Shown: positions 50,327 through 59,244 of the stretch, piece after piece
Layout: every line of letters starts with the position of its first letter
Numbering within the stretch: position 1 is the stretch's first letter
Assembly (NCBI GenBank): GCA_016806145.1
Contig: CP063166.1
Span: 434,001-498,000 of the forward strand
From: Variovorax paradoxus
GTDB lineage: Bacteria; Pseudomonadota; Gammaproteobacteria; Burkholderiales; Burkholderiaceae_C
DNA length: 64,000 bases
Direction: 5' to 3'
Translations under genes and position numbers: made by a program
Notes under the pieces: model-generated
Database searches by the model: none
Told to the model about the DNA's origin: nothing
The model's input: only the letters and a program-made list of their open reading frames with translations

Positions 50327-51367
50327 ATGCGCCCCTTCGCCCTCACCCGCACCTTCGCCGCGCTCGGCGCGGCCGCCGCCCTGCTGGCCTTCGCGTCGCA
50401 CGCGGGAGCGCAGGGCACGGTCAACGCGCTGTGCAGCACCGACGCCGGCTGGTGCGAGGCCGCGGCGGCCGCCTTCACGCGCGAGACCGGCATCAAGGTG
50501 CTGCAGGCCCACAAGGGCACGGGCGAGATCGGCGCCCAGCTGCGCGCCGAGGCCGCCAATCCCAAGACCGACATCTGGTGGGGCGGCACCGGCGATCCCT
50601 TCCTGCAGGCGGCCGAGCAGGGCCTGCTCGAGCCCTACCGCCCGGCCTACATCAACGACCTGCACGACTGGGCCGTGCGCCAGTACGCGCTGTCGCAGAA
50701 CATGGTCGGCGGCTTCTACACCAGCGCGATGGGCTTCGGCTTCAACACCGAGCTGCTGAAGAAAAAGAAGCTGCCCGAGCCGCGTTGCTGGGCCGACCTC
50801 GTGAAGCCCGGCTACAAGGGCGAGATCGAGATCTCGCACCCGGCCACCAGCGGCACGGCCTACACCATCATCGCGGGCCTCGTGCAGCAGATGGGCGAGG
50901 ACGCGGCCTTCGACTACCTCAAGCAGCTGCACCGCAACGTCACCAGCTACACGCGCAGCGGCCAGGCCCAGGCGCCCAACGTCGCCAAGGGGGAAGTGGC
51001 GGTCGGCGTGAGCTTCATCTTCGGCTTCGAGCGCTGGCGCCACGACGGCTTTCCGGTCAAGACCGCCGCGCCCTGCGAGGGCACGGGCTACGAGATCGGC
51101 GGCATCGCGCTGGTGAAGGGCGCGCGCAACAAGGAGAACGCGAAGCGCTACTACGACTGGCTCATGAGCCCCGCGGGCCAGTCCATCGGTGCCAAGGCCG
51201 GCAGCCTGCAGTCGCCGGCCAACAAGACCTTCAAGCCCGATCCGCGCATTCCCTCGATGGACGGCGTGAAGCTCATCAAGTACGACTTCCAGAAGTACGG
51301 CCAGGCGGCCGAGCGCAAGCGGCTGATCGACCGCTGGACGCGCGAAGTAGAAGCGCTGCCGCGCTGA
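50327..51367 (+). CDS. ABC transporter substrate-binding protein (iron/2-aminoethylphosphonate type)
   Basis: Periplasmic binding protein of 346 residues resembling the FbpA/PhnS group (SBP family 1). Signal peptide 1-28 (SHAGA-QG). Conserved segments are FTRETGIKVLQAHKGTGEIGAQLRAEA, DIWWGGTGDPF, LPEPRCWADLVKPGYKGEIEISHPATSGTAYT and a C-terminal SPAGQSIGAKAG. FbpA-type iron Tyr-Tyr ligands are not obvious, so an organic ligand such as a phosphonate or polyamine is possible. No permease or ATPase follows. AGGAGATCCCCC precedes the ATG. Confidence 0.85.
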   Translation: MRPFALTRTFAALGAAAALLAFASHAGAQGTVNALCSTDAGWCEAAAAAFTRETGIKVLQAHKGTGEIGAQLRAEAANPKTDIWWGGTGDPFLQAAEQGLLEPYRPAYINDLHDWAVRQYALSQNMVGGFYTSAMGFGFNTELLKKKKLPEPRCWADLVKPGYKGEIEISHPATSGTAYTIIAGLVQQMGEDAAFDYLKQLHRNVTSYTRSGQAQAPNVAKGEVAVGVSFIFGFERWRHDGFPVKTAAPCEGTGYEIGGIALVKGARNKENAKRYYDWLMSPAGQSIGAKAGSLQSPANKTFKPDPRIPSMDGVKLIKYDFQKYGQAAERKRLIDRWTREVEALPR

Positions 51368-51416
51368 GGCCCGCGTTCAGGGCCGCGTTCAGGGCCGCGT
51401 TCAGGGCCGCGTTCAG
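51368..51416. repeat. 12-bp tandem repeat (about four copies) spanning the last subunit gene stop
   Basis: GGCCGCGTTCAG is repeated at 51381-51392, 51393-51404 and 51405-51416, preceded by a variant copy at 51368-51380. On the minus strand each unit contains CTGAAC, so the frame of the subunit gene meets a TGA in the first unit it enters (51413-51415). The units lie between the binding protein stop and that gene. Confidence 0.9.
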
Positions 51417-52054
51417 GGCGTGCTGGCCGTGAACCGCAGCACGCCGCTGTAGCTGCCCGCGCTGCGGCTCGCGCTGTTGGCATAGCCGAAGGTCCAGCTG
51501 GCCTTCTGCAGCGTCACGAGATTCGAGAAGCTCGTGCCCGCGACGATCGCGGCGCCGCCGATGCCGCTGGCGGGCACCGGCGGCGCGGGCAGGCCGGGGT
51601 TGCTCGAGGCGATGGTGATCTCCGACATCGGGATGGTGTGGCTGCCGTTGGACAGCGGCGTGCTCGCCTCGGCGCGGATGGCGATGGGACCGGCATTGCT
51701 GCGCACCTCGACGGGCAGCACGTGGTCCGAGGCCGTGACCGCGAAGACCGGCGCGCCGCCGGGCCAGTCCACGGCCCTGCGGCTGCCGGCCACGGGCGCG
51801 ACGCCGGCCGGCGGGATCGACGGCGCGAGCACGAAGCGCACGGTGCCGACGGCGTTGCTCTGCGCCGGCCAGGGACTGGCGCCGACGCCGAAGAACAGGA
51901 ACTTCTGGATCGAGAGGCTGAAGTCCAGCCTGGCCGTCGCGCGGCGCGGCACGTCGAAGCCGGACGCCGAGGTGGCCGTCTCGGCCCGCGCGGAAGCGAC
52001 GAGCGCGAGGCACGCCGCCGCCATCGTGCCGCGCAGGGCCATGTGCGCCGTCAT
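51413..52054 (-). CDS. Secreted fimbrial-subunit-like protein C
   Basis: Exported protein of 213 residues, last gene of the surface-fibre operon. Signal peptide to about residue 25 (VASARAE). The mature N terminus has the pattern ATARLDFSLSIQKFLFFGVG and VGTVRF, and the C terminus ends GSYSGVLRFTASTP. Both ends resemble the two other subunits at 53363 and 53986, so the three appear paralogous. A terminal beta strand of this type would suit donor-strand exchange. It starts at an ATGA overlap with the chaperone gene and ends inside a 12-bp tandem repeat. No known pilin family was recognised. Confidence 0.65.
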   Translation of the reverse strand: MTAHMALRGTMAAACLALVASARAETATSASGFDVPRRATARLDFSLSIQKFLFFGVGASPWPAQSNAVGTVRFVLAPSIPPAGVAPVAGSRRAVDWPGGAPVFAVTASDHVLPVEVRSNAGPIAIRAEASTPLSNGSHTIPMSEITIASSNPGLPAPPVPASGIGGAAIVAGTSFSNLVTLQKASWTFGYANSASRSAGSYSGVLRFTASTP

Positions 52055-52881
52055 TCGAGCGTCGCCTCCACCTTGAAGCTGCCGCCCTCCCAGTCCAGCG
52101 TGCCGCCGGCCTTCACCGGATAGGCGGGCTGCGGCGCGGCGCGGCCGTCTTCGCCCTGGGGCACCAGCGCCAGCGTGCGGGTCTGGCCCGGCAGGATCGG
52201 CGTGCCCTCGGGCACCAGCGCGAAGGCACGGCCCCGACTGTCGACGGCCTCGAGGCTGCCTTCGAGGCGACCGTGCGCGTCGCCGCTGTTGGCCACGGTG
52301 ATGGCGATGCGGCGCTGGCCGCCGCTGTCGCTGCTGGCGATCCGTTGCAGGTCGAGCCGCGGCTCGGCGCCGTCGAGCGCGAGGTACACGGCCACCGCGA
52401 TGCGCCCCGTCACCGGCAGGCTCAGGCTGGCGCCGCCGCCCTGGATCAGCGCCTGCTGCGCGGGCTCGCTGCCTTCGATCGCGATCATGAAGCGGCACTC
52501 GCCGCGCGGCGAACCCGCGGGCGGCTCGATCTGGAAACGGTAGGCCCGGCTGCCGCGCGCGGGCAGCCGCACGCTGCGCCGCTCGAGCGCCACCCAGGGC
52601 CGGCAGCTGCCGGGCTGCAGGTCGTCGTGGTAGCTGATCCGGCCCTCGGCCGAGTAGTGCCAGTCGATGGTGCGCACCGTCACCTCGGTCGCGACCGGCG
52701 CGAGGTTGTGGAGCTCCAGCGACTGGCCCAGGCGCGTGCCGCCGCGGCCCGACAGCTCGAAGCGCGAGGGTGAGACCGCGATCTCGAACGGCGCGGCCGT
52801 CGCGCCGCCGGCGCCGGCCAGCAGCAGGACGAAGGTGGCGGCGCGCCGCCGCAGCGCGTGGGTGGGGCAAGGCTGGGTCAT
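52051..52881 (-). CDS. PapD-like periplasmic chaperone of the surface-fibre operon
   Basis: Exported protein of 276 residues with two Ig-like domains. The first contains SLELHNLAPVATEVTVRTIDW, WVALERRSVRLPARGSRAYRFQI and GECRFMIAIEG, resembling the N-terminal domain of pilus chaperones. The second begins near GRIAVAVYLAL and ends in a beta-rich segment. Cysteines in GSCRPW and GECRFM may pair. It is longer than FimC or PapD (about 230 residues). Expected to cap subunit beta strands in the periplasm. ATGA overlaps tie it to both neighbours. The family call is from pattern, not database search. Confidence 0.65.
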   Translation of the reverse strand: MTQPCPTHALRRRAATFVLLLAGAGGATAAPFEIAVSPSRFELSGRGGTRLGQSLELHNLAPVATEVTVRTIDWHYSAEGRISYHDDLQPGSCRPWVALERRSVRLPARGSRAYRFQIEPPAGSPRGECRFMIAIEGSEPAQQALIQGGGASLSLPVTGRIAVAVYLALDGAEPRLDLQRIASSDSGGQRRIAITVANSGDAHGRLEGSLEAVDSRGRAFALVPEGTPILPGQTRTLALVPQGEDGRAAPQPAYPVKAGGTLDWEGGSFKVEATLE

Positions 52882-53357
52882 GGCAGGGTCTCGATTTCGA
52901 AGATCGATTCGAAGCGCAGCGCAGCCCCCGGCGGCAGCCGCAGTTCGCGCGGATCGAGGCGCAGCGTGAGCTCGAAGCTCTCGTTCATCCAGGCGGTGGC
53001 GACGGTGCCGGTCCAGACCGGCACGCGGTCGCCCGGCCGGCCGCCGGCACTCGCGAAGGCGCCGTGGCTGCGCCATTGCAGCTGCATGCCCGCGGGCGAG
53101 CGCAGGCCGGGGATGGCGGCGGGGATCACGTAGAAGATGCGCGCGCGCCGGCCGACGTAGGGCGCGGTCGCGAGCCGGTAGTCGATGCGTCCGAACGGCA
53201 GGTCGAAGCGGATGCCATCGACCGGTTGCGCGCGGCGGAAGTCGGTGTCGACCCGCGCGCGCGGCGAGGCCGAGTCGTCCAGCCGTGCGACGCTCGCGCC
53301 GGCCGGCGGCGTCAGCGCCAGCAGCAGCGCGGCGCATGGGACGATCGATGCCCGCAT
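52878..53357 (-). CDS. Small exported protein of the surface-fibre operon, function unknown
   Basis: Exported protein of 159 residues with a signal peptide ending near GAS (residue 22). The mature part is beta-rich (FDLPFGRIDYRLATAPYVGRRARIFYVIPAAI, then SFELTLRLDPRELRLPPGAALRFESIFEIE). It lacks the terminal patterns of the three subunit-like proteins and has no cysteines apart from the one in the signal peptide. It could be an assembly factor, anchor or second chaperone-like component. It starts 5 bp after subunit B and overlaps the chaperone start. Confidence 0.6.
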   Translation of the reverse strand: MRASIVPCAALLLALTPPAGASVARLDDSASPRARVDTDFRRAQPVDGIRFDLPFGRIDYRLATAPYVGRRARIFYVIPAAIPGLRSPAGMQLQWRSHGAFASAGGRPGDRVPVWTGTVATAWMNESFELTLRLDPRELRLPPGAALRFESIFEIETLP

Positions 53358-53362
53358 GCGCT

Positions 53363-53986
53363 TCACTCCATCGACGCCGTGAAGCGCACGGTGCCGCGGT
53401 AGTTGCCCGCGGGATAGAGGACGTCGTTGTCGTAGCTGAACTGCATTCGCGTCGCGCTGATCGCGTTCGAGCGGTAGGTGTAGCCCAGGCACAGCAGCAG
53501 CACCGGCGCCGAGCAGAAGGTCGCGTTGGCGTTGAAGCTCGCGATCTGCTGGTTGGCGCCGCCGTCGAAGCGGCCGCTCTGGATGTCGCCCGTGGCGGCG
53601 GCGCCGTTGTTGCTGGCGGTCCAGGCGATCTGGCTGAACGGGATGAGGGTGGCGCCGCAGCCGCCCGACTGGCAGGCCAGGCCGGGCGTCGAGTCGACGC
53701 GCAGCGTCACCGGCCGCGCCGTGGACGACGAATTCGCGGGCCGGAACGGCGTGACCGACACCTCGATGACCGGCGAGCCCGCCACCGGCGCCGGCGCCAG
53801 GCCGACGTTGTTGCCGGCGACGTGGAAGGCCACCGTGTCGACGCCGCTGACCGCGCCCACGCGCACCGAGATCGCATAGACCAGGCCGACGTCGGTCACC
53901 GTCGTGACGACGGCCTCCGCGGGCGCGGCGAGGCCTGCGGCCAGCAGCGCGGCAGCGAGCGGAGCCTGGGCCGGGCGGGGGCGCAT
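53363..53986 (-). CDS. Secreted fimbrial-subunit-like protein B
   Basis: Exported protein of 207 residues. Signal peptide to about residue 25 (APAEA). The mature N terminus has VYAISVRVGAVSGVDTVAF, the middle holds two Cys pairs (CQSGGC and CSAPVLLLC), and the C terminus ends GNYRGTVRFTASME. The end closely parallels GSYSGVLRFTASTP of subunit C, and the VRVGA..VDT block parallels LRVGAANTAVDTLRW of subunit A. Its start overlaps the stop of subunit A (TGATG). Likely a structural or tip component; the additional cysteines set it apart. Confidence 0.65.
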   Translation of the reverse strand: MRPRPAQAPLAAALLAAGLAAPAEAVVTTVTDVGLVYAISVRVGAVSGVDTVAFHVAGNNVGLAPAPVAGSPVIEVSVTPFRPANSSSTARPVTLRVDSTPGLACQSGGCGATLIPFSQIAWTASNNGAAATGDIQSGRFDGGANQQIASFNANATFCSAPVLLLCLGYTYRSNAISATRMQFSYDNDVLYPAGNYRGTVRFTASME

Positions 53987-54600
53987 CAGATGCCTTGCGC
54001 GGTGTAGGTGATGGTGTTGGTGTACGTGTTGGCGCGCCAGCCGGCCGGCGCGCCGCCCAGCGAGTAGGTCCAGGTGCCCGTGGCCACCGTGTTGGACGGG
54101 AACGCGGTCGAGGCGCAGGCGCCCAGGTTCGCGCCCGGGTGCGGCAGCGTGCCCTCGGCGGTGACCGTGAAGTTGGCGTCGGCCGGGCCGCCCGTGGCGT
54201 TCCAGGCGCCGAGCGCGCAATGGATGGTGCCGGTGCCGGCATTGGTCCAGGCGTAGACGGTGAGCGTGTCGGCGCCGGCCGCGGTGGCGACGCTCGCGGC
54301 CGGTGCCGCGCCGTTCCAGTCCACGCCGGTGTTGGTGGCGTCGGCCAGGGCCGGCGTGGGAACGGCGGGGATCTCCAGCGCCGAGCTCCAGCGCAGCGTG
54401 TCGACGGCGGTGTTGGCCGCGCCCACGCGCAGCAGGATGAGCTTGGGCACCGTCACGCTGAGGTTGACCTTGGCCTGGGCCGTGATGGTGCCGGTGCCCG
54501 CGCCGTACTGGCTTTCGGCGCGGGCCGCGCCGCCGGCGGTCAGGCAGAGGGCCGCCACGCAGAGGGCGAGCAGGCGATGGGGAAGGGCGCTGGGTTTCAT
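53986..54600 (-). CDS. Secreted fimbrial-subunit-like protein A
   Basis: Exported protein of 204 residues, first subunit gene after the outer-membrane barrel. Signal peptide to about residue 28 (AARAE). It is rich in Thr, Ala, Gly and Asn. The mature N terminus has ITAQAKVNLSVTVPKLILLRVGAANTAVDTLRW-type alternation, and the C terminus ends NTYTNTITYTAQGI. Two Cys (IHCALG, LGACAST) could form one disulfide. Its position suggests the major fibre subunit. No typical FimA, Csu spore-coat-U or type IV pilin signature was found. Confidence 0.65.
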   Translation of the reverse strand: MKPSALPHRLLALCVAALCLTAGGAARAESQYGAGTGTITAQAKVNLSVTVPKLILLRVGAANTAVDTLRWSSALEIPAVPTPALADATNTGVDWNGAAPAASVATAAGADTLTVYAWTNAGTGTIHCALGAWNATGGPADANFTVTAEGTLPHPGANLGACASTAFPSNTVATGTWTYSLGGAPAGWRANTYTNTITYTAQGI

Positions 54601-54664
54601 GAGGGGCCTCGATGGATGAAGAAGAGCAGCGGTGGGCGGGAAAGGACCGGGTGGGGCGCGCTGC

Positions 54665-56929
54665 TCATTCGCCCACCCGGGTCACGGGAATCTCGGCACC
54701 GACCCGGCCGCGCAGCGGAACGCTGACCTCCACGCCGCGGTCGCCGGCCGCGCCCCAGGGCAGCGGCACGCTGTCGAGCGCCAGGCTCAGCCGGTGGCGG
54801 CCGGTCGTCACGAGCGGAAATTCGAAGCGGCCGTCGCGGTCGGTGGTGGCGCGGTAGCGGCCGTCGAGCAGGACCTCCACCTGGGCGGCGCCGCCTTCGT
54901 CGGGCTGTCGCGCGCCGTCGCGGTTGGCGTCGAAGAACACGCGCCCGGCCACGCTGCCGACGCCGGCGCCCGCGTCGGCGTCGCGCACGCCGGCGGTCTG
55001 GAAGGCCGTGCCCGCGCTGCCGTCCCAGCGCAGGTAGACGTAGGCGCTGCGGTCGTTGCTGCGGTACAGCCGTGGGCCGAGGCTCGCGGTGGGCGCCACG
55101 GCGGCGCGCGCCTGGTTGAACGAGGCCGCGAAGCCGAGGCGCCAGCCGCGGGCGAGCGCCTTCTCGGCCGTGAGCGAGCCCGACAGCCCGCGGCTGGTGT
55201 GCAGGCCGCCGCTTTGCGAGGTGTAGCGCAGGTTGCCGCCGATGTGGACGCCGCTGTCGATCCAGCACAGGAACTGCACGCCGGCCGTGGGGTAGTTGCG
55301 CGGCACGCCGCCGCTGCGGTCGCGCGCGTAGCCGAGCGTGGTGGTGAATTCGGGGCGCAGCGTCTCGCGGCCCGCGCCGATCCAGTCCTGCTCCCACTGC
55401 CATTCGTGGCCGGTGGCGGCCTGGTCGCCGAGCACGATCAGTTCGTTGCGCCGCACGGTCAGGCTGAAGCGGCTGCGCAGGCCGTCGAGGATGCGCCGCT
55501 GGTGGAAGACGCTGGCGTGGAGGCTGCGCGAGTCGCTGCCGGCGATGGTGGCGTCCGCGCTTCCGTCGTAGCGCGTGCGCTGCAGGCCCAGGCTGCCGCC
55601 GACCGAGGCATGGCGGTCGAACTGGTAGAGGAAGTTGCCGTTCGCGCCACCGCGGCTGGAGCCCGCGAGCCCGAAGGCGGCGTCGGCCCGCGTGCGTTCG
55701 TGCTCGAGTCCGGCGCCCCAGTGCAGGCGGCTGCCGCCGCGGTCCACGCGCCAGTAGGCGCCGCGCGTGCCGTCGGCCACGAGCTGGTCGCCGAAGAAGA
55801 GGTTCGGCCCGGCCGCGTGCGCGCCGAACTCGTGGCGGTAGGCCCCCAGGCGCGCGCCGGCCTCGACGAACAGGCCGCGCGAAACGCCGATGGCGACGCC
55901 CGGCGTCGGCGAGCGCGTGCGGCTGCCGATCAGCGTGGCGCGGGCCCGGAAGTCGCCGTCGCGCTCCACCTCGCCGCCCCAGCCCAGCGCGCCGGCCCCG
56001 CTCTCGACATGCCGCGATCCAACGCCCTGGCCGGTGAACGGGTCGAGGGTCCAGGTCGGGAGGTCGCGCGCCCGGCTCAGTTGCGCGGCGACGAAGCCGC
56101 TCCCGCCCACGCGCTGCGTCAGGCCGAGCCAGCCGAGCGTGCCCTGGCTGCGCTCGAAGCCCGGATAGGGTCCGCCCCGGAGGTCGCCGCGCGCGCCGAA
56201 GCCTGCGCGCCAGTCGCTATCGGCGTCGTACACACGCAGCGCGGCGCCGCGCACCGTGCTGCTGCCGAGCGAGAGCCGGTAGTGGCGCGCCAGGCCCGCG
56301 GTGAGCTCGCTGTGGAGGTCGCCCAGCGCGCTGTCGGCGAAGGTCCTGGGCGTCAGCGGAAAGGCGAGGTTGCGCAGCGTGAGGCGGCCGCTGCCCGCAT
56401 CCTGCGCGTAGCCCAGCATGCCGATGCCGCCGCCCTGTGCCTCGCTGTCGCCGGTCCAGCGGCGGCCGTCGGCCTGCAGCAGCCACTCGCCGTGGTTGAG
56501 CGTCTCGCGGCGGTAGTCGATGCGCTGGCCGAACTCCAGCGCGCGCCGGCGTCCGGCGCCGGAACTGCTCGCCTCGCCGAAGCCGACGCGGCTTTCGATC
56601 GACCAGGCGCGAAAGCCCTGGGGCTGCGCGGAGGTCGCTTCGATGTCGTCCGCGAGCGCGGCGCCGGCTTCGTCGGTGCTCATGAACCGGTCCTGGTAGG
56701 CCTGCGGCGCCGCCTCGACGAGGGCCCTCAGCCGCGCCTGCTGCGCCTGCGCCCGGTCCATCGGCTCGATGCGGGCCTCGGCGGCCACGGCGGGCGGCGC
56801 GGTCTGCGCGTCGGCCGCGAGGCAGGCCAGCGCCGCCAGGCAGCCGACGCCCGGGCGGCCCCGCGGCGCCACGGCATTCCGGGCCAACCAGCGGCAGGCC
56901 ACGGCAACTCCCTGGTCATCCAACAACAT
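54665..56929 (-). CDS. Outer-membrane beta-barrel, usher-like, with C-terminal SdrD/Cna-B-like domain
   Basis: Large exported protein of 754 residues and first gene of the operon. After an Arg-containing leader and hydrophobic stretch (about 25-42) come a roughly 60-residue periplasmic segment and then about 500 residues of alternating amphipathic strands with aromatic ends, as in an outer-membrane barrel (for instance DYRRETLNHGEWLLQADGRRW, RAYWRVDRGGSRLHWGAGLE-type repeats). Residues 660-754 form an Ig-like SdrD/Cna-B-type domain with a Ca-binding-like DANRDGARQPDEGG. It is shorter than FimD-type ushers (over 800 residues), and no plug domain is evident. With three subunits and a chaperone downstream, it is the likely export pore. 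Confidence 0.6.
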   Translation of the reverse strand: MLLDDQGVAVACRWLARNAVAPRGRPGVGCLAALACLAADAQTAPPAVAAEARIEPMDRAQAQQARLRALVEAAPQAYQDRFMSTDEAGAALADDIEATSAQPQGFRAWSIESRVGFGEASSSGAGRRRALEFGQRIDYRRETLNHGEWLLQADGRRWTGDSEAQGGGIGMLGYAQDAGSGRLTLRNLAFPLTPRTFADSALGDLHSELTAGLARHYRLSLGSSTVRGAALRVYDADSDWRAGFGARGDLRGGPYPGFERSQGTLGWLGLTQRVGGSGFVAAQLSRARDLPTWTLDPFTGQGVGSRHVESGAGALGWGGEVERDGDFRARATLIGSRTRSPTPGVAIGVSRGLFVEAGARLGAYRHEFGAHAAGPNLFFGDQLVADGTRGAYWRVDRGGSRLHWGAGLEHERTRADAAFGLAGSSRGGANGNFLYQFDRHASVGGSLGLQRTRYDGSADATIAGSDSRSLHASVFHQRRILDGLRSRFSLTVRRNELIVLGDQAATGHEWQWEQDWIGAGRETLRPEFTTTLGYARDRSGGVPRNYPTAGVQFLCWIDSGVHIGGNLRYTSQSGGLHTSRGLSGSLTAEKALARGWRLGFAASFNQARAAVAPTASLGPRLYRSNDRSAYVYLRWDGSAGTAFQTAGVRDADAGAGVGSVAGRVFFDANRDGARQPDEGGAAQVEVLLDGRYRATTDRDGRFEFPLVTTGRHRLSLALDSVPLPWGAAGDRGVEVSVPLRGRVGAEIPVTRVGE

Positions 56930-57207: not shown

Positions 57208-59244
57208 ATGGCTGATTCCTCCAACACCAAACTCCCGTTCCAGGCCGAAGTCGCGCAACTGCTGCACCTCGTCACGCATGCGCTGTACTCGAACAAGGAA
57301 ATCTTCCTGCGCGAGCTGATCTCGAACGCATCGGACGCCTGCGACAAGCTGCGCTTCGAGGCCATCGACCATCCCGAGCTCTACGAAGGCCAGTCCGAAC
57401 TCGACGTGCGCATCAGCTTCGACAAGGCCGCGCGCACCATCACCATCGCCGACAAGGGCATCGGCCTGTCGCGCCAGGAGGCGATCGACAACCTCGGCAC
57501 CATCGCCAAGAGCGGCACCAAGGACTTCGTGAGCAAGCTCAGCGGCGACCAGAAGGCCGACGCCCAGCTCATCGGCCAGTTCGGCGTGGGCTTCTACTCG
57601 GGCTTCATCGTGGCCGACCGCATCACCGTCGAATCGCGCCGCGCGGGCCTGCCCGCCGAGCAGGGCGTGCGCTGGGCCAGCGGCGGCGCCGGCGACTTCG
57701 AGGTGGCCGACATCACGCGTGCCGAGCGCGGCACCAGCATCACGCTGCACCTGCGCGAGGATGCCGACGAATACCTCAACGCCTGGAAGATCAAGCAGAT
57801 CGTCGGCAAGTACTCCGACCACATCTCGCTGCCGATCCTCATGGAGAAGGAGGAGTGGAAGGAAGGCGAGAACGACCAGCCCGGCGACATGGTGAAGACC
57901 GGCGAATGGGAAACGGTCAACAAGGCCAACGCGCTGTGGAGCCGTCCCAAGAAGGACGTCACGACCGAGCAGTACGAAGAGTTCTACAAGAGCATCAGCC
58001 ACGACTTCGAGGCGCCGCTGGCCTGGAGCCACAACCGCGTCGAGGGCAGCACCGAGTACACGCAGCTGCTCTACATCCCCGCCAAGGCGCCGTTCGACCT
58101 CTGGAACCGCGAGAAGAGTGCGGGCGTCAAGCTCTACGTGAAGCGCGTCTTCATCATGGACGACGCCGAGGCGCTGATGCCCAGCTACCTGCGCTTCGTC
58201 AAGGGCGTGATCGACTCGGCCGACCTGCCGCTCAACGTGAGCCGCGAGCTGCTGCAGGAAAGCCGCGACGTGAAGGCGATCCGCGAAGGCAGCACCAAGC
58301 GCGTGCTCGGCATGCTCGAGGACCTGGCGAAGAAGCAGAAGACCGGCCCCGAGAGCGGCGAGGGCCGCATCGACGTGGGCTCGGGCGAATCGGTGCCCAC
58401 GCCCGAGCCGACCGAGGCCGTGACGGACGTGGTCGACAAGAACGCGCCGACCGCGGCCGAGACCGCCGCCGCGGCGGCCGACGACGCGGGCAAGTACGCC
58501 AAGTTCTACGCCGAGTTCGGCGCCGTGCTCAAGGAAGGCCTGGGCGAGGACTTCGGCAACCGCGAGCGCATCGCCAAGCTGCTGCGCTATGCCTCGACCA
58601 CCACCGATGCCGTGAGCGTGAGCTTCGCCGACTACAAGGCGCGCATGAAGGACGGCCAGGACGCGATCTACTACATCACGGCCGACACGCTGGCCGCCGC
58701 CAAGAACAGCCCGCAGCTCGAGGTCTTCAAGAAGAAGGGCATCGAGGTGCTGCTGATGACCGACCGCGTCGACGAGTGGGCGCTCAACTACCTCAACGAG
58801 TTCGACGGCACGCCGCTGCAGAGCGTGGCCAAGGGCGCGGTCGACCTCGGCAAGCTGCAGGACGAGGACGAGAAGAAGGCCGCCGAGGAGGCCGCCGAAT
58901 CGTTCAAGCCGCTGCTCGAGAAGCTCAAGGAAGCGCTCAAGGACAAGGCCGAGGACGTGCGCGTGACCACGCGCCTGGTCGACTCGCCGGCCTGCCTCGT
59001 GGTGCAGGACGGCGGCATGAGCACGCAGCTCGCGCGCATGCTCAAGCAGGCCGGCCAGCCCGCGCCCGAGCTCAAGCCGGTGCTCGAGGTCAACGCCGAG
59101 CACGCGCTGGTCAAGAAGCTCGAGGGCTCGGCCCACTTCGATGACCTCGCGAACATCCTGTTCGACCAGGCGCTGCTCGCCGAAGGCGGCCTGCCGGCCG
59201 ATCCCGCGGCCTACGTGCGGCGCGTGAACGCGCTCCTGGTGTGA
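57208..59244 (+). CDS. htpG: HtpG (Hsp90) molecular chaperone
   Basis: ATP-dependent chaperone of 678 residues. The N-terminal ATPase has [48 protein letters not shown] and [16 protein letters not shown]. The middle domain contains the [23 protein letters not shown] helix, and a C-terminal dimerisation domain follows. Length exceeds E. coli HtpG (624) mainly through an Ala/Glu-rich insertion of about 40 residues before [10 protein letters not shown] (about residues 385-425). Divergent from the surface-fibre operon; its stop overlaps the lipoprotein start (GTGA). Confidence 0.97.

Follow-up and report, generated by a model that had tools for sequence, protein, structure and literature searches.

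A conserved six-gene operon of Variovorax paradoxus as a probable variant of the chaperone-usher pathway with a probably reduced usher

Gene content and conservation of the operon

The window analysed here is a stretch of 64,000 nucleotides from Variovorax paradoxus (contig CP063166.1, positions 434,001 to 498,000), and all coordinates below refer to it. It contains a putative fibre-assembly operon of six genes, which a preliminary description, made from the sequence alone, had placed on the minus strand between 51413 and 56929 as a set of tightly packed genes for exported proteins. The open reading frames and their junctions bear this out. The first gene (54665..56929) encodes a predicted outer-membrane barrel protein of 754 amino acids, recognized from its translation, an AlphaFold2 (AF2) model, Foldseek and profile comparison. 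It is followed by subunit 1 (53986..54600, 204 amino acids; translation, N-terminal analysis and profile homology), subunit 2 (53363..53986, 207 amino acids; translation, short N-terminus and an AF2 model of the orthologue from locus L051) and a small exported protein (52878..53357, 159 amino acids; translation, model and synteny). Next come a putative periplasmic chaperone of the PapD superfamily (52051..52881, 276 amino acids; HHalign profile comparison and the bridge chaperones described below) and subunit 3 (51413..52054, 213 amino acids; translation, profile homology and N-terminal analysis). A gap of 64 bp follows the barrel gene; subunits 1 and 2 then overlap by 1 base (TGATG), 5 bp separate subunit 2 from the small protein, and the chaperone gene overlaps its neighbour on either side by 4 bases (ATGA). 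The export signals claimed for all six proteins are visible by eye as hydrophobic N-termini.

The synteny search that had been proposed was made by scanning a genome collection with a chaperone profile, which gave 46 loci in the main set; 16 further loci come from additional relatives. The 46 loci lie in Variovorax, Delftia, Comamonas, Xenophilus, Ramlibacter, Caenimonas, Pseudacidovorax, Polaromonas, Hydrogenophaga, Thiothrix, Thiolinea and unclassified metagenome-assembled genomes; the nearest relatives of the operon, whose host genome is 9.44 Mb, are from Variovorax. The order barrel, subunit 1 (once or twice), subunit 2, small protein, chaperone, subunit 3 is kept in 38 of the 46, with a span reaching from Variovorax to Thiothrix. 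Such retention of both families and order indicates that the operon is more than a chance assembly. In L062 the final subunit scores as subunit-1-like, in L074 two open reading frames share the barrel, and in L078 the chaperone is preceded by subunit 3. Three loci (L056, L076 and L090) are truncated at contig ends, at L053 the 7 kb lying upstream are N-masked, and at L069 just the chaperone and subunit 3 were detected, with 3.8 kb of upstream sequence covered.

A second arrangement (subunit, subunit 2, small protein, chaperone, barrel) is found in nine of the 16 further loci, one of them with a duplicated subunit; in two more the barrel is on the opposite strand, and one set is rearranged. The remaining four comprise a locus of the first arrangement (L105), two partial loci (L104 and L099) and a chaperone only (L098). 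The first arrangement, with the barrel gene first, is referred to as type A and the second, with the barrel gene last, as type B. In both, the small protein gene directly precedes the chaperone gene. The chaperone is present in at least 19 of 299 genomes of the host's family and at least 8 of 398 across the phylum, at least 5 of these distant; the counts are lower bounds, as at most 8 (family) and 6 (phylum) candidates were scored per genome. One locus, L057 of Comamonas sp. JUb58, carries two complete tandem copies of the operon, and a 158-amino-acid fragment of htpG precedes the second, which points to duplication of the operon together with its neighbour.

Relationship of the operon proteins to ushers, chaperones and pilins

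Searches of the six proteins with the usher, PapD and fimbrial pilin models of Pfam and NCBIfam gave no matches. Scanning aligned relatives with Pfam (33 subunits, 22 barrels and two chaperone sets of 19 and 22) did not find these models either and returned only weak, unrelated matches. PF00577 (Usher), PF00345 (PapD_N) and PF00419 (Fimbrial) were thus matched neither by the operon proteins nor by the scanned relatives. The SCPU pilin model (PF05229) gave no Pfam match to the operon proteins or the 33 subunits, and neither CooC_C (PF15976) nor any other alpha-family Pfam model matched the six proteins, the scanned barrels or the scanned subunits. Elsewhere in the host genome (C1 and C2), PapD_N and Usher have four classical-type matches each, and eight Fimbrial matches were found in the genome, so the same models do work on this genome; SCPU had no match in it. 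Clear family-profile matches would make this a system of known type, and since Pfam and NCBIfam yielded none, the preliminary suggestion of an unrecognized type stands. No earlier description of the six-gene system was found in the literature searched, in which few subscription journals were covered.

At the profile-profile level the chaperone is assigned to the PapD superfamily, nearest to the archaic-type chaperones. HHalign comparison with archaic-type PapD proteins gave probabilities of 97.7 for type A, 96.1 for type B, 97.9 for the two pooled and 98.0 for a profile led by the window protein. The match covers both immunoglobulin-like (Ig) domains, and reversed controls gave 0.4 or less. 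For classical PapD the corresponding probability was 1.0–7.5. A plain hidden Markov model search with the archaic-type PapD profile did not find the window chaperone at E values up to 10. All 22 chaperones in an alignment of both arrangements have Pro38, Arg40, Cys93, Cys129, Arg130, Arg160 and Tyr166 as invariant residues. In the archaic chaperone CsuC an arginine of strand F1 (Arg89) is reported to anchor the subunit carboxylate (PMC4654587). In one alignment Arg130 coincides with the archaic arginine and is followed by a two-residue gap; in another, which has flawed reference rows, the two are displaced by two columns. Some sources label the operon's chaperone as a fimbrial chaperone.

The AF2 model of the barrel protein contains a beta barrel at about residues 107–639 and one C-terminal beta domain (657–751). 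There is neither a plug nor a folded N-terminal usher domain in the model, as the preliminary description had remarked for the plug: residues 107–639 form consecutive strands with no inserted domain, and residues 19–101 are mostly of low confidence. The Foldseek comparison with ushers that had been suggested gave FimD and PapC ushers as all nine of the best PDB matches, spanning the full length; several porins outscore ushers by Z. In profile-profile comparison with archaic ushers, type B barrels gave a probability of 96.7 over 294 columns, extending into the barrel, and the pooled type A and B barrels 93.5; type A alone gave only 45.4. On these fold and profile comparisons the protein is regarded as an usher-like outer-membrane barrel. 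The sole recognizable family piece in the six proteins is its C-terminal SdrD_B/CarboxypepD_reg-like domain. SdrD_B was reported by Pfam for 22 of 22 barrel relatives at E values up to 5 (best 9e-9), and the C-terminus is also matched by SdrD_B domains of unrelated proteins. With the signal region included, barrels measure 696–961 amino acids for type A (40 of 42 stretches, the two dropped being fragments of 349 and 390 amino acids) and 644–731 for type B (12 stretches). Among the relatives, P0063 and P0070 are longer (1000 and 1006 amino acids), with an added N-terminal part that looks LysM/FimV-like by eye. The barrel of L092 has a weak LysM match (E 0.017), and in genome G028 (L104) the barrel match lies within a single open frame of 1513 amino acids.

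The fold of subunit 2, taken from the AF2 model of the L051 orthologue, matches CfaE, EcpA, CsuA/B (probability 1.00) and FimA, and is closest to CfaE and CfaB of the alternative pathway. Subunit 1 is homologous by profile to subunits 2 and 3, subunit 3 is subunit-1-like, and subunit 1 occurs in two copies in nine loci. Profile comparison tied the subunits to no known pilin family; against SCPU pilins they gave probabilities of 2.2–2.5, while SCPU set against Fimbrial gave 96.1. Subunits 1 and 3 have an N-terminal, alternating hydrophobic stretch resembling a donor strand. Subunit 2 has a short N-terminus that lacks this donor-type stretch, which suggests that it is probably the tip subunit; subunit 1 is the probable main polymerizing pilin. 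The small exported protein is beta-rich in its model and matches no known family. In L051 its gene is out of frame at the start.

Two loci appear to represent a further chaperone-usher type that bridges to the archaic systems. At L217 (3794–9457), from another family of the same phylum, the chaperone matches both the operon family (2.8e-17) and the archaic-type profile (2e-14). An 875-amino-acid usher nearby matches archaic ushers (1.3e-10) and, weakly, the operon barrel (1.2e-3); by eye it shows an N-domain, a segment resembling a plug and, at the C-terminus, two domains. The usher of L098 (5982–11063) looks similar, although Pfam found no PF00577 match in this protein, and its chaperone again matches both profiles (3.3e-13 and 9.7e-11). 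A profile of four bridge ushers (850–942 amino acids) matches archaic ushers with a probability of 99.3 over 697 columns and type B barrels with 95.0. With plugged-looking bridge ushers linking the two groups, the simplest origin for the reduced barrel is a plugged usher of non-classical type. A further three distant chaperone matches (L216, L218 and L219) have no fibre neighbour detectable with the profiles used.

A candidate chaperone-usher variant and competing explanations

Because the barrel, the chaperone and subunit 2 are placed with ushers, archaic PapD proteins and pilins, the operon is read here, from sequence and model comparison, as an unrecognized branch of the chaperone-usher superfamily and not as an unrelated machine. 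This agrees with the preliminary view of a system that resembles the chaperone-usher pathway but is not classical, archaic or alpha, in that family matches are absent and ties to ushers, PapD and pilins appear by fold and profile-profile comparison; the new fibre family that it had considered possible takes the form of such a branch. The operon is judged to be a new and widespread variant of the pathway, probably with a reduced usher. The predicted product is an adhesive or biofilm-type surface fibre built through a non-classical chaperone-usher pathway (probability about 0.75).

The archaic (sigma, Csu-type) systems share with the operon a chaperone homologous across both domains (probability 98), a barrel whose profile homology is clearest for type B (96.7), operons with several small subunits and, in the subunit 2 model, a match to CsuA/B (1.00). 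They differ in that the operon subunits are not SCPU by Pfam or by profile comparison, and the operon has an additional small exported protein and a barrel gene at its start (type A) or its end (type B). Archaic ushers have an N-terminal domain and a plug, unlike the operon barrel model. The alternative (alpha) systems, CFA/I, CS1 and ECP, are similar in the fold of subunit 2 to CfaE, CfaB and EcpA, but the operon has no match to CooC_C or another alpha-family model and is set apart from them by Pfam, alpha ushers and chaperones having been outside the profile comparison. The gene order of CFA/I also differs. Although FimD and PapC of the classical type 1 and P systems are the best PDB matches of the barrel model, the operon lacks the classical (beta, gamma, kappa and pi) models PF00577, PF00345 and PF00419, and its barrel and chaperone profiles match classical relatives from within its genus and order at 0.1–7.5 only.

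The export signals seen by eye, the conserved gene order, the PapD-type chaperone, the usher-like barrel, the pilin fold of subunit 2 and the donor-strand pattern, as read from sequences and models, support this interpretation. From this point we infer polymerization, the subunit roles, the absence of a plug from the real protein, the gating of the pore, the surface location and the role of the small protein, and assembly might proceed as follows. The six proteins would reach the periplasm through their export signals, where the two-domain chaperone of 276 amino acids would lend a strand and hold the incomplete, Ig-like subunits. The growing fibre would exit through the outer-membrane barrel protein. 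Subunit 2, without a donor strand, would be exported first and form the tip; subunits 1 and 3 would come next, and the alternating hydrophobic N-terminus of each would enter the subunit before it, with subunit 1 the likely shaft. The barrel would act as a reduced usher with one C-terminal beta domain and a short, unfolded N-terminal segment carrying a conserved motif at about residues 50–95, and the small exported protein would probably be a docking or gating helper, or a minor subunit.

The usher plug and N-terminal domain are treated as essential parts. The barrel is probably a reduced usher without plug and folded N-domain, an absence carried over from the model to the real protein. A more speculative extension, which we hold at somewhat short of even odds, is a split or minimal usher in which docking is performed by the short conserved N-terminal motif and the pore is shut by the C-terminal domain or the small protein, making a fourth branch beside the classical, alternative and archaic ones. 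If true, a natural usher without these domains would reveal which components the machine cannot do without and by what other means a pore can be closed.

It is unlikely, though deserving of some weight, that this is an ordinary archaic or alternative system with a diverged usher, whose plug and N-terminal domain are present and were overlooked by the model. The ties of chaperone and barrel to the archaic branch would fit, as would the closeness of the subunit 2 fold to the alternative-pathway CfaE and CfaB, and the bridge ushers of L217 and L098 look plugged, their four-usher profile matching archaic ushers over about 700 columns. However, the operon barrels are short when set against the bridge ushers, and the model shows no inserted domain in residues 107–639, with 19–101 mostly of low confidence.

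Far less probable is a non-fibre complex of surface-bound, Ig-like proteins that is anchored by a porin-like barrel and akin to the Gram-positive WxL and WxL-interacting-protein loci. In its favour, and against the PapD assignment, the chaperone profile finds its best PDB sequence match in the WxL-interacting protein EfmWxLIP1 (E 0.013), with weak matches to the Pfam family WxLIP_PGBD in 5 of 22 chaperones; the porins above ushers by Z and the failure of the subunits to match known pilins by profile point the same way. The archaic PapD match is, however, far stronger than this weak similarity, the pilin fold, donor-strand pattern and duplicated subunit 1 speak for a fibre, and archaic pili use the same genomic site. 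The hosts of WxL loci are not known to have an outer membrane or such a barrel. The EfmWxLIP1 match hints that strand donors with two Ig domains form a wider superfamily. The least credible explanation makes the barrel protein a substrate porin or an exporter that has an SdrD_B-like domain and lies beside secreted proteins by chance. Its porin matches, the unrelated SdrD_B domains that match its C-terminus and its naming in public records would be accommodated, but ushers are its best Foldseek matches and cover its whole length, the usher match of type B barrels extends into the barrel, and gene order is strict across Comamonadaceae and Thiothrix relatives, with a second arrangement of the same families. 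Among Variovorax, Delftia, Comamonas and relatives, in which the system is found, the public records name the barrel an SdrD B-like, carboxypeptidase-like regulatory domain or hypothetical protein.

The htpG site in Variovorax

Upstream of the barrel gene in the window lies the divergent htpG (57208..59244, plus strand), and the other side of the site is flanked by a gene for an exported substrate-binding protein of 346 amino acids (50327..51367, plus strand; start chosen by eye). A divergent htpG lies beside the barrel in 26 of the 46 loci; in the type B loci L095 and L096 it adjoins the subunit end. The gene was sought in 20 genomes of the genus Variovorax, picked non-randomly for presence or absence of the system, and the upstream flank was examined in 15. 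In ten of these flanks the substrate-binding-protein gene stands directly beside htpG with no fibre genes, an empty site. Three (G001, G023 and G034) carry an archaic operon with SCPU pilins, with the substrate-binding gene beyond it in G023 and G034. In G032 htpG and the substrate-binding gene are separated by a lone subunit gene (locus L242 of the flank set L240–L254), and the flank of G006 shows neither a fibre gene nor the substrate-binding gene. Outside the 15 flanks are G000, which is the window, G005 and G013, with type B operons beside htpG by coordinates, and G027 and G035.

Judged from gene content, the htpG site in Variovorax is a fibre exchange site. That a single site holds three fibre systems or none supports their equivalence of function, and this variation among strains would offer a natural experiment on the exchange of surface fibres. 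At the other end of the operon, positions 51368–51415 consist of four copies of a 12-bp unit (GGGCCGCGTTCA), with one change in the first copy. These repeats lie between the convergent ends of the subunit 3 and substrate-binding-protein genes and overlap the stop codon of subunit 3.
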